From Gammaproteobacteria bacterium (GTDB taxonomy: Bacteria > Pseudomonadota > Gammaproteobacteria > Pseudomonadales > Halieaceae), in contig JAUIMF010000001.1 in NCBI GenBank assembly GCA_030433415.1, positions 1 through 64,000 on the forward strand: 64,000 bases of DNA, written 5' to 3'. The notes below the pieces were generated by a model that saw only the letters and a program-made list of their open reading frames with translations, was not told where the DNA came from and did not search any database. Made by a program: the position numbers and the translations under genes. The first letter of the stretch is position 1. Each line of letters begins with the position of its first letter. Of the stretch, positions 1,769 to 30,867 are shown one piece after another.

Positions 1769-1895
1769 CGCCTCAGCGCTTGGGGAGTGTGAATCCGCCT
1801 GCGAAGAACTTCGGATATCTGGGCGAGGTACAGAGCCACATAAAAGCAGGCGAGGGGCTAGACCCCGTTGCCCAAACTAATGCAAAGTTCCGCCT

Positions 1896-4809: not shown

Positions 4810-4833
4810 TGTTGTTGTCCTTTGAGGCCGAGC

Positions 4834-7280: not shown

Positions 7281-7395
7281 GATCTCTCCCTGATGCACTG
7301 GCCCCTGGGTGTTAGCCAACGATGTGGTCGCTGTCCGGTTGTGTGCCCAAAATTCTTACGGTGGAAGGCTAACCCCTTGTGTCCGATGAAAATAG

Positions 7396-8199: not shown

Positions 8200-8227
8200 G
8201 AGCGTGCCTCTCTTTTCTTCCTTAGGC

Positions 8228-10690: not shown

Positions 10691-11443
10691 TTGTTTGCAG
10701 TGGAAGACAAGAGAATTCTTATTACCGGTGGCACCCAGGGCATCGGCCTGGCGCTGGCGACGAGCTTGGCAGAGCAGGGAGCCGAGGTGATAGCAGTAGC
10801 GCGTAGGCCTCGACCAGAGCTTACACAGTTTGAGTCGTTCAGCTGCGATCAGGGCGATGAAGATGCGGTGGCGCAGTTGTTCTCTTCCCTCCGTAAGAGC
10901 CACGGAAGTTTGGACGGATTGGTGATCAACGCGGGTGTTCTTCCTCAGGATGGCCCCCTCCTGGAAGCTGACAGCAGTGATTTCGAGGCCGCCTGGCGTA
11001 TCAATACCTTGGGTGTGTTGCATATGCTCAAGCACGGGGCAGCACTGTTGCGCGATGGCGCTGCCGTTGTCGTGACGGCCACGCCTGCCTCCCAGTATGT
11101 GTTTCCTGCCTATGCCACCTACGGCGCTTCGAAGTCCGCCCTGGAACTGCTGGTTCGCCACGCGGCTGTGGAGCTGGGAGCGCGCGGTGTGCGCGTGAAC
11201 GCCGTAAAGCCCGGCACCATATTGACCGACATGCAGCCCGATAACGATGCCGAGGCACGTATGTGTCGGCACACCACCTGTCTTCAAAGACCGGGGCGAG
11301 TCGCGGAGGTGCTCGGTACCTTTCAATTTTTGTTAAGCGACGCCAGCATCTACGTCACCGCCAGTACGGTGACGGTAGATGGTGGGTGGTTGGGTGGGGT
11401 AACCCCCGGCCTTGTCGATGCACTCGTGGAGTCCAACGCATGA
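10691..11443 (+). CDS. Short-chain dehydrogenase/reductase, TTG start
   Basis: A 250-residue SDR beginning at TTG 10691, with a GTG at 10700 as an alternative; no ATG is available. GGTQGIG is at 13-19 and NAG at 80-82. The catalytic position usually held by Ser (13 before Tyr144) is Thr131, with Ser134 nearby; Tyr144 and Lys148 (YGASK) are kept. Thr can replace Ser in some SDRs, so it may be active. The pair Arg38-Arg39 suggests NADP. It ends inside the start of the aminotransferase gene (4-base ATGA overlap), so the two are translated together. It may supply or use the carbonyl compound handled by the aminotransferase. Confidence 0.9.
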   Translation: MFAVEDKRILITGGTQGIGLALATSLAEQGAEVIAVARRPRPELTQFESFSCDQGDEDAVAQLFSSLRKSHGSLDGLVINAGVLPQDGPLLEADSSDFEAAWRINTLGVLHMLKHGAALLRDGAAVVVTATPASQYVFPAYATYGASKSALELLVRHAAVELGARGVRVNAVKPGTILTDMQPDNDAEARMCRHTTCLQRPGRVAEVLGTFQFLLSDASIYVTASTVTVDGGWLGGVTPGLVDALVESNA

Positions 11444-12786
11444 ATGAGACAGTAATCAAGTCCCTGGACAAAGTGGCAGGAAAAGCGCACTACGAGCGCG
11501 CCTGCCAAGTAATCCCCGGTGGCATGATGAGTAACTTTCGTCGCGACGAAGGTTATGTGCCCACGTACTACGCTGGCGGTGACGGTGCATGGCTTACTGA
11601 TATCGACGGGAATCAGTATCTGGATTACTCCCTGGGCTACGGTCCTTCCGTGCTGGGGCACAACCCACCGGCGGTCACGCGGGCCCTGATCGATCAACTT
11701 AAGCGCTTTAGTTCCTGCGAAAGCACTGTCGTGCAAACGGAGGCTGCGGAGCGCTTGGCGGCTCACGTAGCCTGTGCCGAACTCGTGCGTTTCGCCTGCA
11801 GTGGCACGGAAGCGGTGTATAACGTCTGCCGCATCGCTCGCGCCCACACGGGGCGAGGCAAGATTGTCCGCTTCAATGGTCACTACGATGGCGGTCTCGA
11901 CGAGCTGCTGGGTGGCGTGGTGGCGGACCAGGCGTATCCCGTGCCTCACCAGGGCGAGCGGGAAGACGATTTCTTCTCCCAGCTCGCCAATACGCAGGGG
12001 CGTGCGCCTCACGCCCTCAGTGATGTGTTTCTCATTGAGTGGAATGATCTCGACGCGCTAGAGACACTGTTTAGCGCCCATGGCGATGAGATTGCCGGAG
12101 TGCTTATGGAGCCGGTGATGGTGAATGTCTCCGGATGTCTGCCCATGCCCGGTTATCTCGAGGGCGTGCGCGAACTCTGTAACCGCTATGGTGCCGTACT
12201 AATTTTCGATGAGGTCATCACGGGATTCCGCATGGGTCTGGGCGGCGCGCAGGGCCATTTTGGTGTCACACCGGATCTGGCAACCTTTGGAAAAGCCCTC
12301 GGCGCTGGGTTCCCCGTCGCTGCGTTCTGTGGGCGCCGGGAGGTCATGGATGTCGTGACAAGAACCGAGGTTATCGCTGGCGGCACCTACAACGGTCATC
12401 CCCTGGCCATGGCTGCGGTCTGTGCAACGATCGACGAACTGGCCAAGGACGACGGGGCTGCTATGGCACATCTTCAGGCGATGGGGACGCTGTTAGGCGA
12501 GGGCTTGAACAGGCTTTTCGCGCAGTACGAACCCCATTTGAGGGTGCAGGGCTTTCCCGGCGCCTGGACTTTGGCTTATGAGCCCGAGGGTAAGGCTATT
12601 GTGCGTCATGCGCAGGCATTGGGGGTAGATTCCCATCTGCCCATTGGTGCTTTTGTGGGGGGGATGCAAGGCCGAGGCATCGTTATGCAAACGCGCATGT
12701 GCACCTCCGTAGCGCACAACGCAGAGGACGTAGCCCATGCACTGGCGATGGCGGAAGATACGCTGCGTGAGATGACGGGAGCTTAA
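11440..12786 (+). CDS. Class III PLP aminotransferase, glutamate-1-semialdehyde aminomutase type
   Basis: A 448-residue class III aminotransferase closest in style to glutamate-1-semialdehyde 2,1-aminomutases (HemL). The start at ATG 11440 overlaps the SDR stop. Visible motifs are VIPGGMMSNFRRDEG, the substrate-clamp SLGYGPSVLGHNPP, and CSGTEAVYNVCRIARAHTGR. LIFDEVITGFRMGLGGAQ holds the PLP Asp, and TFGKALGAGFPVAAFCG holds the Schiff-base Lys. HemL relatives in catabolic clusters usually act as transaminases on amino acids or beta/omega-amino acids, not in tetrapyrrole synthesis. With SDRs and an alcohol dehydrogenase on both sides, removal of an amino group to give an aldehyde or keto acid is the likely job. 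The housekeeping hemL is presumably elsewhere. Confidence 0.92.
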   Translation: MNETVIKSLDKVAGKAHYERACQVIPGGMMSNFRRDEGYVPTYYAGGDGAWLTDIDGNQYLDYSLGYGPSVLGHNPPAVTRALIDQLKRFSSCESTVVQTEAAERLAAHVACAELVRFACSGTEAVYNVCRIARAHTGRGKIVRFNGHYDGGLDELLGGVVADQAYPVPHQGEREDDFFSQLANTQGRAPHALSDVFLIEWNDLDALETLFSAHGDEIAGVLMEPVMVNVSGCLPMPGYLEGVRELCNRYGAVLIFDEVITGFRMGLGGAQGHFGVTPDLATFGKALGAGFPVAAFCGRREVMDVVTRTEVIAGGTYNGHPLAMAAVCATIDELAKDDGAAMAHLQAMGTLLGEGLNRLFAQYEPHLRVQGFPGAWTLAYEPEGKAIVRHAQALGVDSHLPIGAFVGGMQGRGIVMQTRMCTSVAHNAEDVAHALAMAEDTLREMTGA

Positions 12787-12837
12787 GGCACAGCTGGCGC
12801 GGGCCCCAGGCCTGTAGTGCAACAAGTGAGAGCGAGC

Positions 12838-13584
12838 ATGGTTTTTTTTGATCTACGGGGAAAACGCGCCCTGGTTACCGGTGGTACCAGTGGCATTGGT
12901 CTCGCCGTGGCACGGCGCTTTGCCGCTGCCGGTGCCCAGGTCACCATTGTGGGGCGTCGGATGCAGGGGCAGGCCTTGGCTGAACAAGAGCACTTTCACT
13001 TTGAACGCGCTGATGTTACCGATGAAAATGCGGTGAAGGCACTGTTCACCGTGGATGAGGCTGGGCGCTATGACGTCGTGGTCCTCAATGCCGGTGTGGG
13101 CGATGTTTTTCCCAGTCTGGCGGAAACACCGCTGGCGGGTTTTCAAGCGCTGTTGGCGAGCAATATCACGAGTACCTATCTGGGTATGCGCTTTGCGCCG
13201 GCGGCGATGGTCGACGGTGCCTCTCTCATCTGTACGTCGTCCGCCATCGCGGGTCATACGCTTCCCGGCTTGGCTGCCTATGGCGTGAGCAAAGATGGTG
13301 TGAATGCCCTGGTGCGCTCGGCGGCAATGGAGTTGGGGCCGCGCGCAATCCGCGTCAACGCGATCTGCCCCGGAGGGGTCGCCTCGGAAATGGTGGCCTA
13401 CGATGCGGAGGCGGATCGCCAGCTTGGTCGCCAAACCGCGCTGGGTCGAGCTTACATGAGCGAGGAAGAGCTGGTTGGCGCCTATCATTGGCTGGCCGCT
13501 GACGAGAGTCGTTTCGTGACCGGTCAGGCCTTACGTGTCGATGGCGGTTTCGCCTTGGGTTATCGGGAGGAGGATCATGAATGA
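12838..13584 (+). CDS. Short-chain dehydrogenase/reductase
   Basis: A 248-residue SDR from ATG 12838 (MVFFDLRGKR); an in-frame start seven codons earlier would only add residues before the fold. GGTSGIG is at 15-21, NAG at 84-86, Ser135, Tyr148, Lys152 (YGVSK). Arg40-Arg41 after the second beta strand suggest NADP. The ending SRFVTGQALRVDGGFALGY closely mirrors the SDR at 1001-1768, so these two are probably paralogues within the island. It overlaps the zinc alcohol dehydrogenase gene by eight bases and follows the aminotransferase by 51 bases. Confidence 0.92.
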   Translation: MVFFDLRGKRALVTGGTSGIGLAVARRFAAAGAQVTIVGRRMQGQALAEQEHFHFERADVTDENAVKALFTVDEAGRYDVVVLNAGVGDVFPSLAETPLAGFQALLASNITSTYLGMRFAPAAMVDGASLICTSSAIAGHTLPGLAAYGVSKDGVNALVRSAAMELGPRAIRVNAICPGGVASEMVAYDAEADRQLGRQTALGRAYMSEEELVGAYHWLAADESRFVTGQALRVDGGFALGYREEDHE

Positions 13585-14620
13585 GGCGCTTCCCAGCACC
13601 ATGACTGCGGCGGTTTACCAGAACCGGGGTGAACCTCTGACCTTGGAGCAGCGACCCGTGCCGAAACCCGGACCTCATCAGCTACTGGTGCGCGTTCGCG
13701 CCGTGGGGATATGCGGCAGCGATATTCATGCATCCGATGCCGACTGGACGCCAACGGGCATCATCATGGGTCATGAGTTTGCCGGTGAGGTCGTGGCACT
13801 GGGACCTGACGTGAAAGGCTGGACCATCGGGGATCGGGTGCTGCCCATGCCCACACTGTCTTGTGGCACTTGTCCCGCTTGCCTTGCCGAGGATTTTCCG
13901 CGCTGCACGGCGCAGCAAACGCTGGATTACAACCCTGCCTACGGCGGTGCGTACGCCGAGTACACGGTGGTCGGCGCACACGATAGCCTGCCCCTGCCAA
14001 AGGCCGTGGATTTTGACGCCGCAGCGGCGGTCGAGCCCTTGGCCGTGGGCTATGATGCCGTGCGTCGCGCACAGTTACGTCCTGATGACCGGGCTCTGAT
14101 CATTGGCGCAGGCCCTATCGGCTTGACCATCGCGCAATGGTGTCGCCATTTCGGTTTGGCGGATGTTGTGGTGTCAGAGCCCAATGCCGCGCGGCGCGCC
14201 TTGGTCGAGTCCCTTGGCGCTACTGCTACCATTGATCCTCACGAGGTCGACGATGTGGCCGGGGCGTTTACGGAATCAGCTGGTGCACCAGCGAGTCTCA
14301 TATTTGAAGCTGTGGGGGCTCCCGGCATGATCCAGCACTGCGTTGCCATGGCGGCCGATGCATCGCGCATCGTGGTGGTGGGTGTATGCATGGCGACGGA
14401 TAGTTTTGAACCCATGATGGCGATTCAAAAACGCCTCCAGCTTCAATTCACCCTTGGCTATAGCCTCGATGACTACCGCCTCATCTTGCGCCTCCTGGGG
14501 CAGGGACGGATTCAGGCTCTGCCGTTAGTGTCTCACCGCATTGATCTGAGTCAGCTTCCCGAGCGTTTTGAAGCGCTGCGAAAGCCGGGCGATGAGATCA
14601 AAGTGATCGTTAATCCCTGA
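13577..14620 (+). CDS. Zinc-dependent medium-chain alcohol dehydrogenase
   Basis: A 347-residue MDR/ADH read from ATG 13577 (MNEALPST); the ATG at 13601 is a possible later start. Catalytic zinc ligands are in GICGSD and GHEFAGE. The four structural-zinc cysteines sit in CGTCPACLAEDFPRC. The Rossmann motif is GAGPIGLTIA, with Glu at the end of the next strand (VVVSEPN), favouring NAD. The family includes threonine, sorbitol and 2,3-butanediol dehydrogenases. It starts inside the SDR gene and ends 126 bases before the 2-oxoacid dehydrogenase E1 gene. It probably oxidises a secondary alcohol or amino alcohol to a product fed to that complex. Confidence 0.93.
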   Translation: MNEALPSTMTAAVYQNRGEPLTLEQRPVPKPGPHQLLVRVRAVGICGSDIHASDADWTPTGIIMGHEFAGEVVALGPDVKGWTIGDRVLPMPTLSCGTCPACLAEDFPRCTAQQTLDYNPAYGGAYAEYTVVGAHDSLPLPKAVDFDAAAAVEPLAVGYDAVRRAQLRPDDRALIIGAGPIGLTIAQWCRHFGLADVVVSEPNAARRALVESLGATATIDPHEVDDVAGAFTESAGAPASLIFEAVGAPGMIQHCVAMAADASRIVVVGVCMATDSFEPMMAIQKRLQLQFTLGYSLDDYRLILRLLGQGRIQALPLVSHRIDLSQLPERFEALRKPGDEIKVIVNP

Positions 14621-14755
14621 TCCAGGTCTCATATTTCTGGCCTGCGCTGACGGCAAGTCGGCCCACTATGCCATAGAGCGGTTCTGAAAGAGCCCGGACA
14701 ATCATCGCTACGCTGGCCCTGACTTGTCGATCAGGGCTCTGGGGAGATGGTGACA

Positions 14756-16870
14756 ATGAGCAAGATAGAAACGCTTCACCCGCAGATTTTTGATCAGCCT
14801 GATGTGCGGCGTGTATTGAATAAGGATGGTGAGTTCCTGGGGGAGGGAACGGAGCTGAGCGGCGATACGCTCGTAGCGCTTTTCGAGGCCATGCTGACGG
14901 GGCGTGTTTTCAATGAAGAGGCCCAGCGCTTTCAGCGTATTGGTCGCATTCCCGGCTACTACTCTTGTGCCGGTCAAGAGGCTCAGGCCGCCATCGCTTT
15001 TGCCCTGGAACCGCAAGACTGGGTTTTTAGCGCCTACCGAGAGCAGGCGCTGCGTTTGGCGCGGGGCGTAACGGTCCAGGAAGAGCTCGCCTACTTCGCA
15101 GGTAAGCCACACGGCGGTTGGAATCCCCGGGAACGACGCATCACCCCGGTGAACGCGACGATCGGAACGCATCTCCCTCACGCCACGGGTTATGGCTACG
15201 CCAGCCGCATGCTGGGCCGCGACGAAGTGGCCCTGGCTGTCTTTGGCGATGGCGCTACTTCGGAAGTAGATTTCCACGCGGCCTTGAACTGCGCCGGGGT
15301 GTGGAAGACACCCACGGTATTTTTCTGCCAGAACAATCTGTATGCGCAGTCCACACCCTTCGCGCAACAAACGGCTGCGGAGACACTGGCCCAGCGCGCC
15401 GCTGCCTACGGCATGGTGGGCGTGCGGGTAGACGGTATGGATGTATTGGCGGTTCACGACGTTGTGCAGGACGCCGTAGCGCGTGCCAGGCAGGATGGTA
15501 TGGCAACGCTGATCGAAGCCATCTGCTACCGCTATGAATCCCATTCCAGCTACGACGGGGCTCCCGTGTATCGCACCCGTGAGGAAGAGGAAATTTGGCG
15601 GGAATACGATCCGCTCTTGCGTGTGGAACGCCTGTTAAAAGCGCGCGATCTTTATGATGAGGATCGCGCTACGGAACTTGGCGAAACACTGAAGGCTGCG
15701 ATGGCCGAGGCTCTGGATGCCCTCGATGCACTCGCGATGCCCAGTCGTGCTTCCCTGTACCGTTCGGCCCAGCAGAGCGTGCCTCAGCGCCTCGAGGAGC
15801 AGTATGTTGAAGCGGCGCAACTCGCCGGGGAATCGGTGGAAGCCATTGCAACGCCACCAGTATCCGTTGTCGCGCCACCGGCAGACGGTGAGCGCGCAGC
15901 GATGACAATGGTTCAGGCCCTCAATGCCGCCTTGAATGATGCCATGGCCGCGCGTCCGGAGACCGTGATCCTCGGCGAAGATGTGGGCCGCGAAGGTGGA
16001 ATCTTTCGGGTTACAGAGGGGCTTTACGAGCGCCATGGTGCCGAGCGCGTCCTCGATACACCCCTGTGTGAGCTGGGCATAATCGGCAGCGCGGTCGGCA
16101 TGGCTATCGGCGGCGCGCGGCCCGTTTGCGAAATCGAGTTCGCCGGTTTCGGCTTTACCGCGTTTGATCAAACCCTGTTTCACGTTGCGCGCTACTTCTG
16201 GCGGAGCAACGGCGCCTTTACCATGCCGTTAGTCATCCGGATGCCTGCCGGGGGTAACCACGGGGGCCTGGAAGGGCATTCCGACTCCCCCGAGGCATTC
16301 TATGCCCATATTCCCGGTCTCACGGTGGTTTATCCCTCCAACGCATACGATGCCAAGGGTTTGTTGGCGGCTGCTTTGGAAAGCGATGAACCCGTGGTGT
16401 TCTTCGAGCCCATCGCCCAGTACTTCAAAAAGGCGAAAGCGATTCCCGTTGATCACTACACGATAGAAATCGGCCGCGCCGCCGTCGTGAAAGAAGGAGC
16501 GGATGTGACCGTGGTGACTTACGGCAATCCAGTCCACAGCTGTATAGCGGTTGCCCAAGCCATGGAAGGCGAGGGAGTCAGTCTTGAAGTGATTGACCTG
16601 CGGACGCTGAAGCCCTGGGATGAAGAGCAGGTGTTGGCCAGCGTGCGCAAAACAGGGCGTTTGGTTGTGGTCCACGAAGCGGTGCGCAGTGGTGGATTGG
16701 GCGCGGAGATCGTGGCTACCGTCGCCGAGAAAGCTGCCGACTGGTTGGAGACGCCGCCAAAGCGGGTCACTCACGCCGATCGAGTCTGGGATGTTGCCTT
16801 GCTAGAACCTTTCTCTGTGATTACGGAAGCGGCCATTGCGACGGCGGTACGCGAGGTGTTGCAGCCATGA
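14756..16870 (+). CDS. 2-oxoacid dehydrogenase E1, alpha and beta subunits fused
   Basis: A 704-residue protein joining E1 alpha (about 25-350) and E1 beta (about 375-700). The alpha half has the TPP motif GDGATSEVDFHAALN ending near QNNLYAQSTP. The beta half begins ALNDAMAARPETVILGEDVGREGGIF and keeps GGNHGGLEGHSDSPEAFYAHIPGL. Such fused E1s occur in branched-chain or acetoin-type complexes. It decarboxylates a 2-oxo acid on TPP and passes the acyl group to the lipoyl arm of E2, encoded 147 bases downstream. ATG 14756 is preferred because a CTGGGGAG site ends nine bases before it, whereas ATG 14747 directly abuts that site. The 2-oxo acid is unknown. Confidence 0.94.
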   Translation: MSKIETLHPQIFDQPDVRRVLNKDGEFLGEGTELSGDTLVALFEAMLTGRVFNEEAQRFQRIGRIPGYYSCAGQEAQAAIAFALEPQDWVFSAYREQALRLARGVTVQEELAYFAGKPHGGWNPRERRITPVNATIGTHLPHATGYGYASRMLGRDEVALAVFGDGATSEVDFHAALNCAGVWKTPTVFFCQNNLYAQSTPFAQQTAAETLAQRAAAYGMVGVRVDGMDVLAVHDVVQDAVARARQDGMATLIEAICYRYESHSSYDGAPVYRTREEEEIWREYDPLLRVERLLKARDLYDEDRATELGETLKAAMAEALDALDALAMPSRASLYRSAQQSVPQRLEEQYVEAAQLAGESVEAIATPPVSVVAPPADGERAAMTMVQALNAALNDAMAARPETVILGEDVGREGGIFRVTEGLYERHGAERVLDTPLCELGIIGSAVGMAIGGARPVCEIEFAGFGFTAFDQTLFHVARYFWRSNGAFTMPLVIRMPAGGNHGGLEGHSDSPEAFYAHIPGLTVVYPSNAYDAKGLLAAALESDEPVVFFEPIAQYFKKAKAIPVDHYTIEIGRAAVVKEGADVTVVTYGNPVHSCIAVAQAMEGEGVSLEVIDLRTLKPWDEEQVLASVRKTGRLVVVHEAVRSGGLGAEIVATVAEKAADWLETPPKRVTHADRVWDVALLEPFSVITEAAIATAVREVLQP

Positions 16871-17028
16871 CGGATTCGCAGCAAATCCCCCGCAACGATA
16901 AAGCGGTGAATGTAAACACCCGGGCGCCGCTCGAGCGTTCGCTCCGCGGGTCGTTTCAAGTTCGGGCGACAACGTTAAGGCCAAGCATGGATGATATCGG
17001 ACAGGGGGGCAGGGTTTATGGCTGTTAG
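16867..17028 (+). CDS. Possible 53-residue ORF between E1 and E2
   Basis: An open frame of 53 codons starts with ATG overlapping the E1 stop (ATGA) and runs 11 bases into the E2 gene. The peptide (MTDSQQIPRNDKAVNVNTRA at its start) is basic and shows no domain I recognise. The only support is its position: coupled to the gene before and overlapping the gene after. It may be chance coding in an intergenic spacer. Confidence 0.2.
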   Translation: MTDSQQIPRNDKAVNVNTRAPLERSLRGSFQVRATTLRPSMDDIGQGGRVYGC

Positions 17029-18301
17029 AGATTTCCTCCTTCCCGATATGGGGTCGGGGTCTCAGGAAGCTACCGTTGCCAATTGGTTGGTCGCTGTGGG
17101 TGATACGGTGACTGACGCGGATATCCTGTGTGAAATCGAAACAGAGAAGTCCGTTATCGAAGTGCCGGTACCTTTCGCCGGAACCATTGTGAGTTTGGCT
17201 TGTGCGGCGGGTGAAGCGGTTCTCGTGGGTGAGGTGTTGGCACAGATTGATAGCGCCGCGGGCGGGACGTCGCCTGCCGCTGCACTGTCTCAGCCTGGTA
17301 GCGCGCAGGGTGATGGCGTGCAGAGTAGCGACGCGCTACCAGTTCCCTCTCAAACCGCATCAGCGCCCACTGCCGTAGCGGCGGGGGTAATTCAGGCAGC
17401 CGCCGTTGCCGAAGAGCGCGCACGCGCTATGCCTTCTGCCCGCCGTCTGGCGCGAGAACGCGGTGTGGATCTACGCGCCGTCAATGGTACCGGTCGTGGG
17501 GGCCGCGTGACGAAGGCCGACATCCTTCAACTTGCCGCGTCGGCGCACTCATCGGCAGTCGCATCGACACCTGCGTCAACACCGACACTGGTCGCCGCAG
17601 CGCCATCGCTGCCCGTGCCCGAGGGGGAAGTGGAAAGCCTGGGAACGATGCGGCGCGCTATCGCCGATCATATGAGCCGCTCCTGGCGGGAGATTCCCCA
17701 TGTCTTCGCCGAGCTTGAAGTGCCCGCGCAAAAGCTCCTCGAGCTCAAAAAGGCGCTGGAGCAGGCATGGGGCGAGAAACTGCCCATCGAAGTATTTTTG
17801 GTGCGAGCGGCGTTGGCGGCGCTGCGTAAGTTTCCAAACTTCAATGCGACGCTCCGTGGCCACGAGCTGACCCGTCACGGCCACTGGCATCTCGGCACGG
17901 CCACGGCCACGCCCGAAGGTCTCATGGTGCCGGTGATACATCATGCCGATCGCCTGACACCTCGCGCGCTGGCCGCCAAGGTTCGCGACAACGCAGAGAG
18001 AGCCGCAGGACGCCGCTTGGGGCCTGCAGAGCTCAGCGGCGCCACCTTTACCGTCAATAACATTGGCGCCCTGGGTCAGAGCAAAGGGACCTCCATCATT
18101 CCCCACGGCACCATGGCGATCCTGTCGGCAGGACGCGCTAGTGAACGTCCCGCGGTTGTTGAGGGTGAACTGGTGGCGGCCAGGATGCTGACCTTGACCC
18201 TGTCCTTCGATCATCGCGTTATCGACGGAGCCGAGGGCGCAGCTTTCCTACAGCATGTGGGGACTTCCCTGGCTTCTCCCCTGGCCTTGGTCGTCGACTA
18301 G
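17018..18301 (+). CDS. 2-oxoacid dehydrogenase E2 (dihydrolipoamide acyltransferase)
   Basis: A 427-residue E2 from ATG 17018 (MAVRDFLLPDMGSGSQEATV). It has a lipoyl domain (about 3-78) with the lipoylated Lys in ETEKSVIEVP, and an Ala/Pro/Ser-rich linker. The peripheral-subunit-binding domain (about 132-170) contains MPSARRLARERGVDLRAVNG, then TGRGGRVTKADI. A second linker leads to the catalytic domain (about 200-425) with the His motif SFDHRVIDGAEGAAFL. It takes the acyl group from E1 and transfers it to CoA. No E3 lipoamide dehydrogenase is nearby; the complex would have to borrow one. A GGGGGGCAGGG stretch precedes the start. Confidence 0.94.
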   Translation: MAVRDFLLPDMGSGSQEATVANWLVAVGDTVTDADILCEIETEKSVIEVPVPFAGTIVSLACAAGEAVLVGEVLAQIDSAAGGTSPAAALSQPGSAQGDGVQSSDALPVPSQTASAPTAVAAGVIQAAAVAEERARAMPSARRLARERGVDLRAVNGTGRGGRVTKADILQLAASAHSSAVASTPASTPTLVAAAPSLPVPEGEVESLGTMRRAIADHMSRSWREIPHVFAELEVPAQKLLELKKALEQAWGEKLPIEVFLVRAALAALRKFPNFNATLRGHELTRHGHWHLGTATATPEGLMVPVIHHADRLTPRALAAKVRDNAERAAGRRLGPAELSGATFTVNNIGALGQSKGTSIIPHGTMAILSAGRASERPAVVEGELVAARMLTLTLSFDHRVIDGAEGAAFLQHVGTSLASPLALVVD

Positions 18302-18389
18302 AGAACTACTATCACAACGTAGGCAGCAACGCTCGCTGCAAAGTCACAAAACAGTCATATACCTGCTTTAACTCCGGGAGCCATTAACA

Positions 18390-19355
18390 ATGAACCATGC
18401 AGACACAGCCGCAGTGACGGCTGGCACCGACGATACCGCCCGCAGCCCAGATTCTTTCGAGTTGCGTCGCCGCAATGACGAAGGCGGCACGGCGCCTCTG
18501 AGCCATTGGACCGTGGCCAATGAGACGGACACGCTCACGGATGTTCTATTGGGGCCTGCCGACAATCTACAACATATGGCGACTAGCTCTTTGTCGCGAA
18601 AGCACTTGCGGGAAAACCCTGCGGATATCATCGCTGCTCAACAACAGCATCGCGAGCTGGTAGATGTTTATCGCCACTTCGATGTTCGGGTGCACATGAT
18701 AGAACCGGATCCGGCTTTGCCGATGCAGGTATATTCTCGGGATTCCAGTGCTATGACGCCCTTTGGGCCGATTATCACGGCGATGGCTCAGTGGTGGCGA
18801 CGCGGTGAGAACTACGCTGCCATTCGCTGCTACGAGAAGCTGGGAATCCCCATCTATGACATGGTAACAGCCGGTGCCCTTGAAGGCGGTGATTTCAATG
18901 TCGTCGAAGAAAACTGCCTGCTCCTCGGCGTCGGCGAGGCGCGAACACAGCTGCGAGCGGCGCAGCAGGTACAAGGCTGGTTAGAACAGGAAGGCTGGGA
19001 AGTGCGCATCGCCCAGTTCGATGAGTTCTATGTGCACATCGACTTGATGGTAGTGCCCATCGCCGAAAAGCTCACCGCTGTCTGTGAAACCTGTACCGAT
19101 CCCGCCATCGTCAATTGGCTTCGCGACAAAGGTCACGAAATCATTGATGTGCCCTTCCGCGATACCATGACCCTCGGATGTAATGTGATGGCCTTGGGCC
19201 AAGATCGGGTGATCGCACCGCGCTCATCGACGGTATTGGTACAGGCACTCAAAGCACGCGGGTTTGAGGTGGCTGAGGTAGATACCAGTGAAATCTCTAA
19301 ATGTGGCGGTGGAGTTCACTGCATGGCCCAAGCGCTGCGCCGGGTTGCCGCTTAG
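18390..19355 (+). CDS. Amidinohydrolase/arginine-deiminase-superfamily protein
   Basis: A 321-residue member of the guanidino-group-modifying superfamily (arginine deiminase, DDAH, agmatine deiminase). The signature residues are all visible: SRDS at 116-119, EGGDF at 165-169, His216 and Asp218 in VHIDLM, and the nucleophile Cys311 in GGGVHCM. These enzymes hydrolyse a guanidine to a ureido group plus ammonia, or move the amidino group. The size is nearer DDAH/small ADI than bacterial ArcA (about 410 residues), and no arcBC genes are present. The gene ends tail to tail with the carbamoyl-amino-acid hydrolase (4-base overlap), whose reaction would follow naturally. CCGGGAG precedes ATG. Confidence 0.9.
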   Translation: MNHADTAAVTAGTDDTARSPDSFELRRRNDEGGTAPLSHWTVANETDTLTDVLLGPADNLQHMATSSLSRKHLRENPADIIAAQQQHRELVDVYRHFDVRVHMIEPDPALPMQVYSRDSSAMTPFGPIITAMAQWWRRGENYAAIRCYEKLGIPIYDMVTAGALEGGDFNVVEENCLLLGVGEARTQLRAAQQVQGWLEQEGWEVRIAQFDEFYVHIDLMVVPIAEKLTAVCETCTDPAIVNWLRDKGHEIIDVPFRDTMTLGCNVMALGQDRVIAPRSSTVLVQALKARGFEVAEVDTSEISKCGGGVHCMAQALRRVAA

Positions 19356-20569
19356 CGAGCGAGGGCCCAGGCGCTGTGGAGGAGCACGTTGGCCCCGCGG
19401 GCCAGTTGCTCCGCCGACGCGTATTCCGCGGGGTTGTGGCTCATGCCCCCCCGGCAGGGAGTGAAAATCATCGCCGTAGGACAAACCCGCGACAGGTATA
19501 CCGCATCATGACCAGCACCAGAGACCATAGACCGGTGTTGATAGTCGCATTGCACCGTCGCATCACGCACCGCATCGATACAACGCGCGTCGAAGGCCAC
19601 CGGTGGGGAATACCAAATTTCCTCCACTGTCGCCGAGCATATCTTTACGGCCTCTATAAGGGCACGAGCCTGCTCGTCCATGCGCGCCAGGGAGTCACTG
19701 TTCGGGTGGCGTAGGTCCAAGGTGAAATGCACGCTACCCGGTACTGTATTGCGACTGCCGGGACGGGCGCTGATGTCTCCGATCGTAATGCGTGCATCGT
19801 CGTCCCAGCTGTCGACCAGCTCGTACAGGCTTGAGATGAGTGCCGCGCTGCTGCGCACGGGATCGCGCCGCCCGCTCATGGGGAAAGGGCCCGCGTGGTT
19901 CTCTACCCCGGAGACGGTGACGTCGTACCAGCGAATGCCTTGCACGCCGGTGACAATACCGATTTCTAAATCCTCCTTTTCCAGGATAGGTCCCTGCTCG
20001 ATATGCGCTTCGAGAAATGCGCCTAACTCGTGGTTCGCCGGAAGTGTGCTTTCTTCGTAGCCAAGGCGTTGAAGCTCCTGCGCGATGGTGACACCTCGGT
20101 TATCTTGTCTTGCGATGGCGTAACCTTCGTCAAAAACACCGGCGAAGTATCCCGAACCCAACATAGCGGGAGAGAAGCGCGCACCCTCCTCGTTGGTCCA
20201 CACGGCGATTTCCAGGGGGGCGGCCGTATCGGCTCCGTGCTCCGTGAGGGTTTCGATGACCTCCAGGGCGGCGATGACGCCGTACACGCCATCAAATTTT
20301 CCTCCGGTGGGCTGGCTATCCAAATGGGAGCCCATAACGATGGGGAGGCGTTGGGCATCGGTACCTTCGCGACGAAGAAATAAATTGCCGAGGCGATCGT
20401 GGCGAGCTTGCAGGCCCAAGGGCTTGCTCCATGCGATGAGCAACTGCCGACCTTCCTCGTCGAGGTCGCTGAGCGCGAGACGGCAGACGCCGCCCTGATC
20501 TGTAGCGCCCAACTCAGCCATGGCCATGAGTCGGGACCACAGGCGTTGCGTGTTGATGCGAATATCCAT
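19352..20569 (-). CDS. M20 Zn-dependent N-carbamoyl-amino-acid/allantoate amidohydrolase
   Basis: A 405-residue amidase of the HyuC/AllC/ureidopropionase branch of the M20 fold. Metal-ligand motifs are GSHLDSQPTGGKFDGVYGV (His and bridging Asp), TNEEGARFSPAMLGS (Glu pair) and HIEQGPILE. The dimerisation lid carries VENHAGPFPMSGRRDP. The family removes the carbamoyl group from N-carbamoyl amino acids or ureido compounds, giving the amine, CO2 and ammonia. It converges on the amidinohydrolase gene, sharing four bases. A GGGAGG site lies five bases before ATG. The combined pair could strip a whole guanidino group from the substrate in two steps. Confidence 0.93.
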   Translation of the reverse strand: MDIRINTQRLWSRLMAMAELGATDQGGVCRLALSDLDEEGRQLLIAWSKPLGLQARHDRLGNLFLRREGTDAQRLPIVMGSHLDSQPTGGKFDGVYGVIAALEVIETLTEHGADTAAPLEIAVWTNEEGARFSPAMLGSGYFAGVFDEGYAIARQDNRGVTIAQELQRLGYEESTLPANHELGAFLEAHIEQGPILEKEDLEIGIVTGVQGIRWYDVTVSGVENHAGPFPMSGRRDPVRSSAALISSLYELVDSWDDDARITIGDISARPGSRNTVPGSVHFTLDLRHPNSDSLARMDEQARALIEAVKICSATVEEIWYSPPVAFDARCIDAVRDATVQCDYQHRSMVSGAGHDAVYLSRVCPTAMIFTPCRGGMSHNPAEYASAEQLARGANVLLHSAWALAR

Positions 20570-20666
20570 GGTGGCCTCCCTTGTGCTGAGCTTGGAGCCT
20601 AGGCCAATAGCAAGCGATGGCCCATGGCTGGGGGGGCCAGATTATGGGCCCAGAAGGCCCCGCAGC

Positions 20667-20837
20667 TCAGGGTTCAAACTCGGCAAGAGAGCGGCCATCG
20701 ACACAGATACATTGGCCATAAGGGGTGGCGCAAGCCTCGCAGATGCCTACGCCGCACTTCGTGCGGCAATCCACTGCGCTGAAAATCTGGTCTTCGTCAA
20801 CAAAGCCCCTGTGTACGTCGATGGTGGCTCGGACCAT
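20667..20837 (-). CDS. 56-residue cysteine-rich protein with a [2Fe-2S]-like motif
   Basis: A short open frame on the minus strand, bounded upstream by an in-frame TGA 15 bases before the ATG. The peptide contains six Cys in 25 residues: CRTKCGVGICEACATPYGQ followed by CICVDG. The spacing C-x4-C-x2-C and the closing CVDG resemble the iron-sulfur segment at the C-terminus of dihydroorotate dehydrogenase electron-transfer subunits (PyrK) and related reductases. It could be a small ferredoxin-like electron carrier or the tail of a truncated reductase. It lies between the amidohydrolase start and the transposase debris at the island edge. Confidence 0.55.
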   Translation of the reverse strand: MVRATIDVHRGFVDEDQIFSAVDCRTKCGVGICEACATPYGQCICVDGRSLAEFEP

Positions 20838-20894
20838 GGGCGCGGGGCCTCAGTTGTAGAACATGAGCTCCGTCCGCTGGACAACCCTGATCTT

Positions 20895-21044
20895 CGCCTG
20901 GCGCGGGTGGCCAGGGCCAATGGCTTTTTTCTACATGCTGGGGTGAGCTGTGAGGGCAATCAGAAAGGCAAGCGTGAGCGTCTGTGTCGGTACATTTCCC
21001 GCCCGGCCTTAGCAGTTTCCCGACTGTCGCTGAGTTCCACAGGC
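20895..21044 (+). pseudogene. IS91-family transposase remnant
   Basis: A 50-codon stretch reads RLARVARANGFFLHAGVSCE, then GNQKGKRERLCRYISRPALA and VSRLSLSSTG. This matches the C-terminal part of IS91-type (Y2_Tnp, PF04986) transposases, whose usual form is SLHAGV, then LCRYIxRP, then RLSL. The expected continuation (LKxPYRDGTTHVIFEPL) is missing; the similarity ends abruptly near 21,044 where an IS110-like fragment begins on the other strand. The surrounding long + open frame (20,520-21,185) is otherwise not a gene. It marks the right end of the accessory region. Confidence 0.75.
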
Positions 21045-21125
21045 ATCGACTCCGTGTTCCTCGAACACATTCTTTGCCAGATCCACTCTCACTCGAATAA
21101 TGTTCCCGTTGGGCTCTTCCTCTTC
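21042..21125 (-). pseudogene. IS110-family transposase N-terminal remnant
   Basis: On the minus strand the codons from 21,125 down to 21,042 read EEEPNGNIIRVRVDLAKNVF, then EEHGVDA. Intact IS110/IS1111 transposases begin with an almost identical RuvC-like strand, xRVGVDLAKNVFQxHGVDA, so the identification is clear despite the short length. Similarity stops after GVDA, and a TAA follows in frame at 21,011-21,009. The fragment abuts the IS91 remnant, suggesting successive insertion and deletion at one spot. Confidence 0.75.
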
Positions 21126-21135
21126 TTATGGCTGC

Positions 21136-21924
21136 TTAATACGCCTGGGACTGCCCGCCGTCGATGGGGATCACAGCGCCGTTGATGAACACAGCCTCCT
21201 GCGATAGCAGGTAGGCGACCAGCGAAGCCACTTCTTCCGGCTCACCAAAGCGGCGCATCGGATTGACGCTGACAAACTCGCGTCCGACGTCCTCCCAGCC
21301 ATCTTCGCCGCCAATCTGTATCAGTGAACCTTTGACCATGTTGGTCATGATCGCACCGGGAGCAATGGCATTAACACTGATGCCGTACTGACCGTATTCG
21401 ATAGCGGCGTCTTTGGTCATGCCCGCCACGGCGTGTTTTGACGCACCATAACCGACCTGGTTGGGTACGGCGCGAATGCCACCCACGGATGAAGCATTCA
21501 CGATGGCACCCGAGCCCTGTTTGACCATGTGGGGCAGGGTGTACTTCATACCCAGGAACACGCCGTTGAGGTTAATGCTGATAACGCGCTGGAACTCTTC
21601 GGTGCCATAGTCTGCGACAGGATTCTGTTTTCCCTCGACACCTGCGTTGTTATACAGGCCATCGATCCTGCCATGGCTCGCCACGGTCTGGTCTACATAG
21701 CGCTTGACATCATCTTCTTTCGAGACATCTGCCACGATCAGAGTCGTGTTGGTGGCCGGTTCTGCCGCGAGGACTTCTGCGCGGGTTTCTTCCAGCGCGG
21801 CCTGGGATACATCGACCAGCGACAGTGCTGCGCCCTCGCTGGCGAGGCGCACGGCGACGGCCCGACCCAGGCCGGAGCCGGCACCGGTAATGATGATGGT
21901 TTTGTTGTCGAATCGTTGGGACAT
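21136..21924 (-). CDS. Short-chain dehydrogenase, glucose-1-dehydrogenase-like
   Basis: A 262-residue classical SDR. TGAGSGLG is at 13-20, NNAG at 92-95, Ser145/146, Tyr159, Lys163 (YGASK), and Asp38 (LVDVS) suggests NAD. The fold is complete and the end FINGAVIPIDGGQSQAY is regular. The style (ATNTTLIVADVSKEDDVKRYV) resembles the glucose-1-dehydrogenase-like SDRs common in fatty-acid and terpene catabolism. It is the last gene of a leftward series that includes an NTF2-like gene and an MDR reductase. It lies just outside the transposase debris and probably belongs to the resident chromosome. Confidence 0.93.
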   Translation of the reverse strand: MSQRFDNKTIIITGAGSGLGRAVAVRLASEGAALSLVDVSQAALEETRAEVLAAEPATNTTLIVADVSKEDDVKRYVDQTVASHGRIDGLYNNAGVEGKQNPVADYGTEEFQRVISINLNGVFLGMKYTLPHMVKQGSGAIVNASSVGGIRAVPNQVGYGASKHAVAGMTKDAAIEYGQYGISVNAIAPGAIMTNMVKGSLIQIGGEDGWEDVGREFVSVNPMRRFGEPEEVASLVAYLLSQEAVFINGAVIPIDGGQSQAY

Positions 21925-22030
21925 GTTGTTTTTCTCGTTAGTGGATTGACTTCAATTTTGCTTCCGGCCCGCGTCTGAGGCGGGGGAGCCCCTTGTTCAT
22001 TTCTTCGATCTGACAGGCGGAGGTATTCGC

Positions 22031-22468
22031 TTACGCCCCCGTTTGGGGCCGCTTGCCGGCGCAGATGACGTCGGTCACGACCTCGGTGTCAAGGTACTCG
22101 GTCAGACGCCGAATACGACCATCGCAAATACGAAAGACGAAGTGATAGTCCTGTTCGTAATAAACGCCGGATACATGCGTTCCCGTAGCGGTCGCCTCGA
22201 CGCAAACCCGATCTTCTTCTGCCGTCATGGAGTGAATCTGCATGTTGAGACCTTTCGGAAAAACATCGAGCACGCTGTGCACAAACGCTTTCACCTGCTC
22301 AGGCCCGTAGGTGCCGGAGATGAGCGTGTGTCCCATGGTCGTGATGTGTATGTCTTCAGCGTAAAGGCGTAAGAGCGCCCCGGTGTCGTTGGCTGACAGG
22401 GCCGCGGCCCAGGCGTTGACCAGTTTCTTGTTGGCGGCGATGGACGACGGTGTTTTTGTTGTATTCAA
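22031..22468 (-). CDS. NTF2/SnoaL-like polyketide-cyclase-fold protein
   Basis: A 145-residue protein with the NTF2-like fold: a leading helix KLVNAWAAALSANDTGALLRLYAEDIHITTMG, a middle helix EQVKAFVHSVLDVFPKGLNMQIHS and closing strands RVCVEATATGTHVSGVYYEQDYHFVFRICDGRI. The helix-strand pattern matches SnoaL-like ester cyclases and ketosteroid-isomerase-like proteins. No catalytic residues can be assigned with confidence. It lies 48 bases downstream of the MDR reductase and probably shares its transcript. The role could be an isomerisation in terpenoid or branched acyl-CoA breakdown. Confidence 0.85.
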   Translation of the reverse strand: MNTTKTPSSIAANKKLVNAWAAALSANDTGALLRLYAEDIHITTMGHTLISGTYGPEQVKAFVHSVLDVFPKGLNMQIHSMTAEEDRVCVEATATGTHVSGVYYEQDYHFVFRICDGRIRRLTEYLDTEVVTDVICAGKRPQTGA

Positions 22469-22516
22469 TGTGGGAAGTGTCCGGCAATCGGTGGGAAGGA
22501 TTGGCCAATCGCTTCT

Positions 22517-23575
22517 CTAGTCAGCGCTGGCAACCTGAATCATCAGGCGGCCTCGGTTGCCACCGGTAAACAGTTCGTTGAACACCTCGGGAATCCGTTC
22601 AAAGTCGTCGCGAACATCGACCCGGGCGTTGAGCTTACCCTCGTCCAGCCACTGCGCGATCTGCGCATAGGCCTGTTCACACTCGGGGGAGCCAAAATAA
22701 TCGCTGACGAGAAAACCCGTGATGCTCGCGGTATTTGCGACCAGGTTCCACATGTTCTCGGGACCCGGCGATGCGCCGGTCGCGTTGTACTGCGAGATCA
22801 TGCCGCACACAGCGATGCGGGCACCCTTCGCCAGGTGATCCATCGCGGCCTGCAGGGTCTCACCGCCCACGTTGTCAAAGAAGACATCAAGGCCCTCAGG
22901 AAACGCTTTGCCGATTGCCGCCGACAAATCGCTGCAATCCTTGTAGTCAATCGCCTCGTCGCAACCGAATAACTCGACGAGTTCAGCGCATTTTTCCTGC
23001 CCACCGGCAATGCCGACGACTTTGGATGCACCTTTGAGTTTGGCGTACTGACACACCAATGAGCCACAGCTGCCGTGGGCACCGCTGACGAGCACGGCAT
23101 CACCGGCTTTCATCCTGGCGATCTCCATCAGTCCATACCAGGCGGTGCCTCCGCTGGTTCCAAGCGCGTGCAGGTACATGGGGATGGGGTGCCCGGAGGA
23201 GATATCCATTGGCGCGAGTACACCGAGTTCACCCGCGCGGGTCACGGACATCTGTTCCGCGGGAACCACCATGTAGCGCGCCCAGTTGCCCACACCGGCG
23301 ACGATCGTTCCCACCTCAACATCGGGGTTTTTCGTCTCGAGTACTTCACCGACGGTGACGCCCATCACGGGCTTGTCCAGCGGCAGGGGATCGACGTAGC
23401 CACCATCGCCCATCCAGCCGCGCGTGGCCGGGTCCATGGCGAGGTAGCGTACCTTTACCAGGGTTTCTCCGTCCTGAAGCGGGGGTACGTCGGATTCGCG
23501 GTATTCAAAGTCGGTGTTTTTTACCAACCCCTGGGGGCGGGACTTCAGTATCCATTCGTGGTTTTTAAGGCTCAT
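22517..23575 (-). CDS. Zinc-free medium-chain reductase (PTGR/CurA-like)
   Basis: A 352-residue NADP-dependent MDR of the leukotriene-B4 dehydrogenase/prostaglandin-reductase/CurA branch. The start ATG 23575 (MSLKNHEWILKSRPQG) is chosen because a GAGG site lies upstream and the family begins there. An upstream in-frame start would add a spurious hydrophobic stretch. Key features are YLAMDPATRGWM, the Rossmann motif SGAHGSCGSLVCQYAKLKG and DVFFDNVGGETLQAAM. No zinc ligands are present, as expected. Such enzymes reduce conjugated enones or 2-alkenals, including terpenoid ones. It lies 124 bases after the phytanoyl-CoA dioxygenase gene and probably extends the same operon. Confidence 0.93.
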   Translation of the reverse strand: MSLKNHEWILKSRPQGLVKNTDFEYRESDVPPLQDGETLVKVRYLAMDPATRGWMGDGGYVDPLPLDKPVMGVTVGEVLETKNPDVEVGTIVAGVGNWARYMVVPAEQMSVTRAGELGVLAPMDISSGHPIPMYLHALGTSGGTAWYGLMEIARMKAGDAVLVSGAHGSCGSLVCQYAKLKGASKVVGIAGGQEKCAELVELFGCDEAIDYKDCSDLSAAIGKAFPEGLDVFFDNVGGETLQAAMDHLAKGARIAVCGMISQYNATGASPGPENMWNLVANTASITGFLVSDYFGSPECEQAYAQIAQWLDEGKLNARVDVRDDFERIPEVFNELFTGGNRGRLMIQVASAD

Positions 23576-23699
23576 CGAATTATCCTCGGCGGTACTGGGA
23601 TTGGCGTATTCCTGCAAGGGCAGCCATCCTAACGTCGCCACAGCGCACAAAACAATCAAATTCGACTTTTTTACTTCAGCGGGTCGAACCCGTTGGCGA

Positions 23700-24529
23700 T
23701 CAGTTCAGCAAGCGAAGCGGGTGCATGCCATTTACCATGCCCATGAATGGCGGGTAGATGTTGTAGCCCACCAGAGACTGCAGCTCCGGGCTCGTGGCGC
23801 GTACGCGATCCTTCGACAGTTCCAGCAGGTAGTTCTCCTGCTGGCGAACATACGCCTCGCAGTACTGGTGCGTGATGCCGAAGCGTGCTGCGCGGTCGGT
23901 GTTCTCGCCGCCGCCGTGCCAGGTGGTGCCAAGAAAGAAGACGACGGAGCCGGCGGGCATCACGGCGGGGACGGCTTCGTTACGCAGACCGGTGCGCTCA
24001 TCATCCCAGCGCTGGCTTTCGGGGATCACGACCGTGGCGCCGTTGTCTGCGGTGAAATCGTCTATCGCCCACACCGTGGCCGCGCCCAGGGCTTGCCTTG
24101 GACGAGGCAAGCGATAAAAGCTGTCGTCAAAATGCAGCGCCTGGGGCGCTTCGCCGGGCTGAATGTTGATGATCTGACTTTGCGAGAGCAGGTAGCCGGG
24201 CATGAAGAGCTTGTCCAGCAACCCGAGAATGCGGGGATGCGTGGCCAGGTCGTCGGTGATCCTGGTTTTGCTCAGTACGTAGTATACCCGCTGGGTTTTG
24301 TGTCCCTCGAAGGGGTTTCGGCCGGTTTTATTCAGTAATTGAAGCCCCTCGGCCTTGATGGTCTCGCACTGCTCTCGCGAGAGCAGTCCCTCGATAATCA
24401 CGTAGCCGTCGCGCATGAGCACCTCATGGTCGGCATCAATCTGCGCGCTGCTTCGCTCGGGCCCGGGTTTGAGCTGAGGAAAGGTTCCGGCGTGGTCCTC
24501 GGTACGGTAACGTTTCTCGTCAAAGTCGC

Positions 24530-24533
<4 letters not shown>
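23700..24533 (-). CDS. Phytanoyl-CoA dioxygenase family protein
   Basis: A 277-residue Fe(II)/2-oxoglutarate oxygenase of the PhyH family. The HxD iron motif lies in ALHFDDSFYRLP, and the distal His in FFLGTTWHGGGENTDRAARFGITHQY, where Arg is suited to bind 2-oxoglutarate. The N-terminal part has the usual DGYVIIEGLLSREQCETIKAEG. Family members hydroxylate branched acyl-CoAs or small terpenoids next to a carboxyl group. The start overlaps the biotin carboxylase stop (ATGA), so it is co-translated with the carboxylase genes. This suggests removal of methyl-branch obstacles as part of the same pathway. The actual substrate is unknown. Confidence 0.92.
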
Positions 24534-26523
<1,990 letters not shown>

Positions 26524-26527
<4 letters not shown>

Positions 26528-27333
26528 GCATTGTCCTCCGCCGCCCAGCTGGGCGGCCGTTTTTCGGCAAAGGCCTGCATGCCTTCGCGTCCCTCGTCGC
26601 CAAGCATTGCGTCGGCAAAGCGCTCGGCGGCAAATTGCACGATCTCATCACCGTGCAGTGTTTCGCTGGCGCTGATGATCTGCTTGGTCAGGGCGATGGC
26701 ACCGGGTGCGCCGCGTCGCGCCTGGGCGAGAAGCTCGCGGCATTTCGTTTCAAGACCCTCGCTGTCCGGCACGAGAAAGTGCGCAAAGCCCAGGCGGTGG
26801 GCTTCGCGACCATCAAACCGTTGCGCCGTTAGCAGCAGGCGTCGCGCTTCGGAAGCGCCGATGCGCTTGATAACGACCGGTGTGATCTGGGCTGGGGGAA
26901 TGCCCAGGGTTACTTCCGTAAGCGCATACTTCGCATCGGCGGTCGTCACCACCACATCGGCAATACATGACAGGCCCAGGCCGCCGGCCATGGCAATGCC
27001 TTCGATCAGAACGATGAATAGCTGCGGCAGTTGGTTGACGGCCTGGCACATGCGGCCAAAGCTGGCGTTGAACTCGACGATCGTTTGTCGCTCGGCGCCA
27101 CCCTGAAATACGGTTTTGAACAGGCTCAGATCGCCGCCGGAGCAGAAGGCACCGCCTTTGCCACGCAGGATTACAAAGCGGATGCTCGTCTCGTCGGGCA
27201 GGGCTTCGAGTACGGAGGCCAGTTCACTGGCCATCTGGTCCGACAGGGCGTTTTTGACCTCGGGGCGATTGAACCAGATGGTCAGCAGGTCGCCTTCGCG
27301 CTCGAGAATGAGTTGAGAAACATTGGGTAACAT
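26524..27333 (-). CDS. Enoyl-CoA hydratase/isomerase family protein
   Basis: A 269-residue crotonase-fold enzyme. The oxyanion-hole segments are RGKGGAFCSGGDLSLF and EGIAMAGGLGLSCIADVVV, and an acidic residue sits in LTEVTLGIPPAQITP at the usual catalytic position. The sequence resembles isohexenylglutaconyl-CoA hydratase (AtuE) and methylglutaconyl-CoA hydratase (LiuC), which hydrate the product of the carboxylase encoded on both sides. It lies between the two carboxylase subunit genes, 12 bases after the beta subunit and overlapping the alpha subunit gene by four, an order shared with atu and liu operons. Confidence 0.93.
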
Positions 27334-27345
27334 TTGCGACTCCTG

Positions 27346-30785: not shown

Positions 30786-30867
30786 GATGTTTCCCGTAGT
30801 CTTTGGGCCTGGCCGCCGACACACGGCGGATTGTTCCCGTTGCAGATGACGCCGAGTCTAGACTACC

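Follow-up and report, generated by a model that had tools for sequence, protein, structure and literature searches.

In the AguA/AguB system a guanidino group is turned into an amine in two steps, first by a deiminase and then by a carbamoyl hydrolase; AguA belongs to PF04371 and AguB is a relative of the nitrilases. The same end result is reached within one enzyme by ArgZ/AgrE and by AstB. Here we describe a gene pair in a 64,000-nucleotide stretch of a Halieaceae genome (contig JAUIMF010000001.1, positions 1 to 64,000; the whole stretch is called the window below) that may follow the logic of AguA and AguB with other enzymes. The first gene encodes AMH, a guanidino-group-modifying deiminase of the pentein fold that we propose to be an omega-guanidino-acid deiminase (18390-19355, forward strand, 321 amino acids), and the second encodes HyuC, an enzyme of the M20 hydantoinase/carbamoylase family that we propose to be a ureido-acid hydrolase (19352-20569, reverse strand, 405 amino acids).

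We consider it rather likely, judging from the sequences, that AMH and HyuC strip the guanidino group from a small omega-guanidino acid in two steps, replacing a guanidinobutyrase-type ureohydrolase without the release of urea. AMH, as a cysteine-dependent deiminase, would convert an unsubstituted guanidino acid that has no alpha-amino group to the ureido acid and ammonia, and HyuC, as a metal-dependent carbamoylase, would split the ureido acid into the amino acid, CO2 and ammonia. Our guess is that the substrate is most likely of the sort of 4-guanidinobutyrate, from arginine breakdown, which would pass through 4-ureidobutyrate to gamma-aminobutyric acid. The family assignments, the predicted fold, the conserved residues and the recurrent adjacency of the two genes were observed, and from these we infer which reactions take place, in what order and on which substrate.

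Compared with AguA/AguB, the pair in the window joins a PF19420/arginine deiminase (ADI)-like deiminase, with carboxylate-binding residues, to an M20 carbamoylase; compared with ArgZ/AgrE and AstB, the second hydrolysis would fall to a separate M20 partner. Guanidinobutyrase (GbuA), acting after AruI in the arginine transaminase route, has the same proposed substrate and final amine, but this ureohydrolase gives urea in one step, whereas AMH and HyuC would give ammonia and CO2 by way of the ureido acid. The type of chemistry is already known; what is new lies in how the two enzymes are paired and in the class of substrate that we infer. In the open-licence PubMed Central literature we found no description of an AMH/HyuC pairing, and no guanidino-acid deiminase under the exact enzyme names. 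Human beta-ureidopropionase belongs to another family than HyuC. Its active site can accommodate 4-ureidobutyric acid, according to an excerpt of PMC10741476. In the arginine transamination network of S. meliloti a ureohydrolase acts on 4-guanidinobutanoate, and the word "ureido" is absent from the main text of that paper as available (PMC7268258); guanidino-acid ureohydrolases are likewise treated in an excerpt of PMC9772407, and the excerpts of PMC11410670 and PMC2242806 hold nothing decisive on the pair.

If the pair works as proposed, both inherited names would mislead: the annotation "dimethylarginine dimethylaminohydrolase family protein" given to close relatives of AMH, and the name "allantoate amidohydrolase" of the best HyuC model. 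Guanidino-acid nitrogen would then be rescued as ammonia by a route that needs neither urea nor urease and that is testable with two purified proteins. More broadly, we tentatively suggest a catabolic module without a name, in which a guanidino-acid-specific deiminase and a dedicated M20 ureido-acid carbamoylase would stand in for guanidinobutyrase, without urea, in several lineages of Proteobacteria. In the window this module would be coupled to a 2-oxoacid dehydrogenase complex of its own that acts on guanidino 2-oxo acids.

Family and active site of AMH

AMH matches PF19420 (E 6.8e-23) and PF02274 (E 7.8e-18) well above the Pfam cut-offs, and these are its sole Pfam matches at E<=0.001, with none to the agmatine deiminase family PF04371. 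It falls below the cut-offs of all three NCBIfam dimethylargininase equivalogs (78.6, 67.9 and 66.6 bits against 300, 450 and 340, respectively) and far below that of the arginine deiminase model TIGR01078 (41.3 against 489.1 bits). The AlphaFold2 model, built on a 44-row alignment, has a mean pLDDT of 90.4 and a pTM of 0.87, with low confidence for residues 1-18. When this model was compared with known structures by VIA-align, NnhA, ADI, ArgZ/AgrE and Pseudomonas dimethylarginine dimethylaminohydrolase (DDAH) were tied at Z of about 31-32, and the best PDB match by sequence was Pseudomonas DDAH (3rhy/1h70). AMH shares its fold with ArgZ/AgrE but scores below the cut-off of that arginine dihydrolase model (NF052232, 51.3 against 450 bits). 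The predicted fold together with the Cys, His and Glu residues places AMH in the pentein superfamily.

The original prediction had called Cys, His and Asp residues intact, and C311, H216, E165 and D118 are all present. Across the alignment R117, D118, S119, R137, E140, E165, D168, R185, H216, D218 and N265 are invariant (44/44 rows), and C311 is kept in 43 of the 44, the exception being a homolog (L012) with Tyr. AMH has the same catalytic triad as ADI (ArcA), the same two guanidinium Asp and the same carboxylate Arg pair: in HMMER alignments R137 and R185 align with the two substrate-carboxylate-binding Arg of ADI. It differs from ADI at the amine-binding Asn, where 17 of the 44 rows have Met and the other 27 have Tyr. 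We take this amine-ligand position to be Asn in ADI and Asp in the Pseudomonas enzyme, the residue numbers being equated from alignments and presumed correspondences.

According to the available part of PMC3474736, two Arg of ADI bind the substrate carboxylate, an Asn takes part in the contacts to the amino and carboxylate groups, and an alpha-helical domain of ~85 residues lies between modules 1 and 2. This domain is absent from the 321-residue AMH, where the ADI match is split on either side of it (1rxx chain 7-73 and 159-263). An excerpt of PMC11659421 states that the guanidino group is stabilised by Asp in arginine deiminases, and that Lys in this place accommodates the dimethylamino group in DDAHs. 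AMH has the fold of Pseudomonas DDAH but differs by HxD for HxK at the catalytic His, with D218 two residues after the His in 44/44 rows.

Because of this residue pattern, we expect a substrate with an unsubstituted guanidino group and a carboxylate and probably without an alpha-amine; the residues appear to fit an omega-guanidino acid and to speak against dimethylarginine. Dimethylarginine was rejected as a substrate on the family cut-offs and on HxD in place of HxK, and agmatine is disfavoured by the conserved pair R137/R185. The pattern suggests a residue rule for guanidino-acid deiminases in the ADI/DDAH superfamily, in which the carboxylate Arg pair is kept, the amine ligand is lost and HxD is kept.

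Recurrence of the gene pair

HyuC scores 412.1 bits with TIGR01879 (cut-off 204), which places it in the family, and 527 bits with NF006769 (cut-off 452); with the allantoate deiminase AllC model TIGR03176 it reaches 249.3 bits against a cut-off of 597.75. The closest solved structures are PDB 5thw/5i4m (E<1e-120), deposited as "Deacylase" and "Amidase, hydantoinase/carbamoylase family", and conserved-looking motifs were placed in HyuC, with roles that we assume from general knowledge. The window's HyuC belongs to this M20 carbamoylase family and has a deiminase, not a hydantoinase, as its neighbour.

As first predicted, AMH converges on HyuC with exactly four bases in common. The stop codon of AMH is the TAG at 19353-19355 and that of HyuC the TAA from 19354 down to 19352, which gives a tail-to-tail overlap at 19352-19355. 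This overlap is not kept in relatives: an SMR-family gene separates the two genes in a Parvularculaceae contig (L022), and AMH and HyuC lie on the same strand in all 11 relatives from the host's order. We therefore dropped the overlap as evidence, as relatives retain the adjacency and not the overlap; the overlap carries little meaning and the adjacency is what counts.

We surveyed 293 genomes of the order, of which 32 match AMH at E<=1e-3 and 12 (the host and 11 others) at E<1e-70. HyuC adjoins AMH in 12/12 of these closer cases, with no space for an intervening gene, and the gene order is HyuC then AMH in ten, AMH then HyuC in one (all on the same strand) and convergent in the host. This adjacency is far from random gene order, in genomes that are kin to each other. 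The genes flanking the pair differ from family to family. The next best genome has an AMH match at 6e-19, and HyuC was not found within 1.5 kb in eight weaker AMH loci (L014-L021, from 8 of the 20 weaker-match genomes). In the converse search, 12 of 30 HyuC loci (host included), taken from 76 genomes with a match to the HyuC query, have AMH no more than 1.5 kb away. A genome of the same genus (G221) has no AMH match.

Outside the order, the pair recurs in other arrangements. The Parvularculaceae contig, a 6.5 kb piece of a metagenome-assembled genome, carries the E1 and E2 components of a 2-oxoacid dehydrogenase complex followed by AMH, and then, facing them, the small SMR transporter gene (4557-4877, reverse strand; SugE/Smr-like, below both cut-offs) and HyuC. 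Among 398 genomes surveyed across the phylum, of which 40 match AMH, one of the same class and another order (L167) has AMH followed by HyuC. On the Halioglobus pacificus plasmid CP019045 the AMH and HyuC matches lie 53 bases apart on one strand. More distant deiminases (35-37%) on plasmids overlap a "Zn-dependent hydrolase" gene by 4 nt (L104, L109) or share one gene run with it (L105), and this hydrolase is a NF006769-type HyuC in L104 and L105. In the PLSDB gene table, which is incomplete, no HyuC is seen in the plasmid stretches L106 and L108 or in the AbgB-type L102, L103 and L107.

The AMH tree (44 aligned rows and 16 more, with most of the 80 genome_contigs loci described below left out) pairs the window with the Parvularculaceae AMH (support 99), inside a clade (99) with alphaproteobacterial AbgB-type AMHs, and a separate clade (97) unites 12 HyuC-adjacent AMHs, from L167 and the 11 order relatives. 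Mapped on this tree, a same-strand HyuC (14 rows) takes three changes, of which strongly supported branches enforce two; the convergent pair forms one further clade. In the HyuC tree (34 rows, repeats of loci already in it omitted) the HyuCs of the window, the Parvularculaceae contig and the order relatives fall together, with a support of 89 that is not strong; this group has 15 rows, 14 of them AMH-linked. Both trees are limited by long branches and a quick method. Related HyuCs accompany AMHs of two distinct clades, which would be expected if the two kinds of AMH form the same kind of product.

The host genome, which is 89.5% complete, has one AMH match and one HyuC above the cut-off, with three other weak TIGR01879 matches. 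The original prediction of a deiminase and then a carbamoylase removing the guanidino group is supported because the adjacency recurs across lineages and gene orders, because the host has single copies and because the AMH residues are of the ADI and not the DDAH type.

Gene neighbourhoods of AMHs in other genomes were taken from 80 of 185 relatives kept in a scan of genome_contigs, where many stretches are short and gene absences are weak evidence. A relative (60-100% identical) of the 2-ketoarginine decarboxylase of L033, which scores 754.5 bits with NF005712 (cut-off 500), is found in the flanks of 7 of these 80 loci, with a ureohydrolase next to it in 3 of the 7. The Pararhizobium plasmid p3 likewise carries an annotated 2-ketoarginine decarboxylase with an ABC transporter, an amidohydrolase, AMH, an alpha-hydroxy acid oxidase and a FAD-binding oxidoreductase. 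These genes, with the AguB gene next to AMH in L069, speak for a guanidino context of AMH.

Alternative explanations and points against

The first alternative is the one originally suggested for the substrate, a larger guanidino natural product. It was prompted by an amide hydrolase, an aminotransferase and a TonB receptor nearby, and all three were located in the window: a DMFA2_C (N,N-dimethylformamidase-like) amide-hydrolase-like protein (5631-7319, reverse strand; PF20254, E 3.7e-67), a class III aminotransferase (11440-12786, forward strand) and a TonB-dependent receptor (8228-10429, reverse strand; PF00593/PF07715). The compound would be taken up through the receptor, the amide hydrolase would free a guanidino acid, AMH and HyuC would strip it, and the aminotransferase, SDR oxidoreductases and E1-E2 would finish the breakdown. 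The receptor, DMFA2_C, SDR and MFS genes do form a divergent run next to the run that ends in AMH, but outside the window only E1-E2-AMH-HyuC occurs together, in the single contig that ends there, and the flanks of the HyuC-AMH pair are unrelated in the 11 order relatives. We regard this explanation as unlikely. The natural-product part of the original prediction was not demonstrated; the residues and the neighbourhoods of some relatives (2-ketoarginine decarboxylase, ureohydrolase) point rather to a small omega-guanidino acid; the nearby receptor and amide hydrolase make a larger starting substrate possible.

It is improbable that the two genes are unrelated neighbours, with AMH acting on arginine or methylarginine and HyuC being a carbamoylase of a hydantoin or dihydropyrimidine pathway. 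Such enzymes exist in both families, the genes are convergent in the window, two models named allantoate amidohydrolase are above their cut-offs for HyuC, and one Hydantoinase_B gene lies elsewhere in the host genome. This explanation is opposed by the 12/12 adjacency in varying gene order, by D218 in place of the DDAH Lys together with the lost amine ligand, and by a host that has no D-hydantoinase above the cut-off (the best candidate, a short frame close to where a contig stops, reaches 60 against 393 bits, and as the genome is incomplete a D-hydantoinase may yet exist).

We hold it very improbable that AMH serves polyamine breakdown as an agmatine deiminase of an unrelated kind. The host genome has no PF04371 match, and 10 of the 80 loci have near AMH a glutamine-synthetase-like gene (68-100% identical to that of L069), which FAD oxidase, aminotransferase and Pot-type ABC genes often accompany, and AguB once; however, the two Arg at the carboxylate-binding positions are invariant, and the partner in the window is an M20 enzyme and not AguB. 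The AguB gene in question (L069, 11297-12169, reverse strand; TIGR03381 above cut-off) lies just downstream of AMH on the opposite strand. Transfer of the amidino group to an acceptor instead of hydrolysis is scarcely credible, since the fold is common to amidinotransferases (SxtG and human L-arginine:glycine amidinotransferase, Z about 30) but AMH finds its Pfam matches in the DDAH and ADI families and a carbamoylase partner makes sense only after hydrolysis.

Several points weigh against two-step removal by AMH and HyuC as the function of the pair. To our knowledge, no activity is on record for any member of the AMH family, and the loss of one amine ligand is no proof that AMH refuses arginine. 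The L012 homolog (1504-2415, reverse strand) that lacks the catalytic Cys adjoins a HyuC gene; its close relatives L011 and L013 retain the Cys, and the change is either a sequencing error or a loss of function. The two genes are convergent in the window and hence are not one operon here, and they need not be transcribed together. No Rfam match, and no guanidine riboswitch, was found in the window or in six loci. Of the 80 genome_contigs loci, just one (the Parvularculaceae contig) has HyuC near AMH. An AbgB-like hydrolase is upstream of AMH in 21 of the 80, with AMH at 68-72%, and the remaining loci have neither gene in DNA that is often short. Most of the closest AMHs come after such an AbgB-like hydrolase, some of them in the vicinity of a 2-ketoarginine decarboxylase. 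Six AMH loci of the phylum survey (34-49%) have no HyuC within 1.5 kb. In the HyuC tree, the AMH-linked group leaves out the plasmid HyuCs L104 and L105 and takes in one HyuC without AMH link (L133). Finally, the host encodes an AruI-like protein (708 bits, cut-off 500) and a ureohydrolase that shares 60% identity with the ureohydrolase adjoining the L033 decarboxylase, so the AMH/HyuC step may be redundant for 4-guanidinobutyrate. The same two proteins make guanidino-acid chemistry likely in the host, and with this conventional route possible beside AMH and HyuC, 4-guanidinobutyrate stays a best guess only.

The AbgB-like gene also accompanies AMH in seven phylum-survey loci (AMH at 68-71%, all of family f90), and such an amidohydrolase lies directly before AMH in the alphaproteobacterial plasmid loci L102 (10376-11962), L103 (8559-10088) and L107 (10407-11987). 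Among the 21 genome_contigs loci, the one AbgB-like protein scanned scores 92.9 bits with TIGR01891 (cut-off 153.75) and matches nothing in Pfam at 1e-6. In the alphaproteobacteria this amidohydrolase may take the role of ureido or acyl hydrolase.

Surrounding genes

AMH is the last gene of a forward-strand run. The run begins with an SDR oxidoreductase (10691-11443; NCBIfam SDR models, below cut-offs), followed, probably in the same operon, by the class III aminotransferase, which is glutamate-1-semialdehyde-aminomutase-like (PF00202; below the cut-off of each of 25 NCBIfam models listed), a second SDR oxidoreductase (12817-13584; PF13561) and a zinc alcohol dehydrogenase (13577-14620, ATG at 13577; PF08240/PF00107). 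Next come a fused E1 alpha+beta ThDP dehydrogenase component of 707 amino acids (14747-16870; PF00676, PF02779 and PF02780) and the E2 acyltransferase of a 2-oxoacid dehydrogenase complex (16991-18301; PF00198, PF00364 and PF02817). Genes of the run overlap or are separated by gaps of <=126 bases, and the run could be one transcript, toward which HyuC is transcribed. A promoter and terminator scan of 18200-21200 gave little above shuffled sequence (3 against 1.1 and 4 against 2.1).

The fused E1 has a 64% relative in the Parvularculaceae contig and otherwise relatives of at most 41-43% in the searches made. With up to 3 candidates per genome scored in the order survey, none exceeds 41%; with up to 2 per genome in the phylum survey, none reaches E<=1e-140; and the best plasmid match among those listed is 42.6%. 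From its context, a guanidino 2-oxo acid is a possible substrate of this E1. We guess that the E1/E2 complex and the aminotransferase could make the guanidino acid out of a 2-oxo acid and also consume what the pair produces.

Two loci elsewhere (L044, 2882-10400; L049, 935-5262) combine AMH with another ADI-like gene and with genes for an isochorismatase-family hydrolase, a 2OG-Fe(II) oxygenase and a LacI regulator, possibly a further guanidino gene set. In the window, the reverse-strand run divergent from the AMH run spans 2996-10429 and comprises MFS, SnoaL-like, SDR, DMFA2_C and TonB receptor genes. On the other side, 21136-30824 (reverse strand) holds SDR, SnoaL, curcumin-reductase-like MDR, PhyH, biotin-dependent carboxylase subunit and AtuA genes, as well as an open reading frame that resembles enoyl-CoA hydratase by eye, and this run looks like an acyl-CoA carboxylation pathway.

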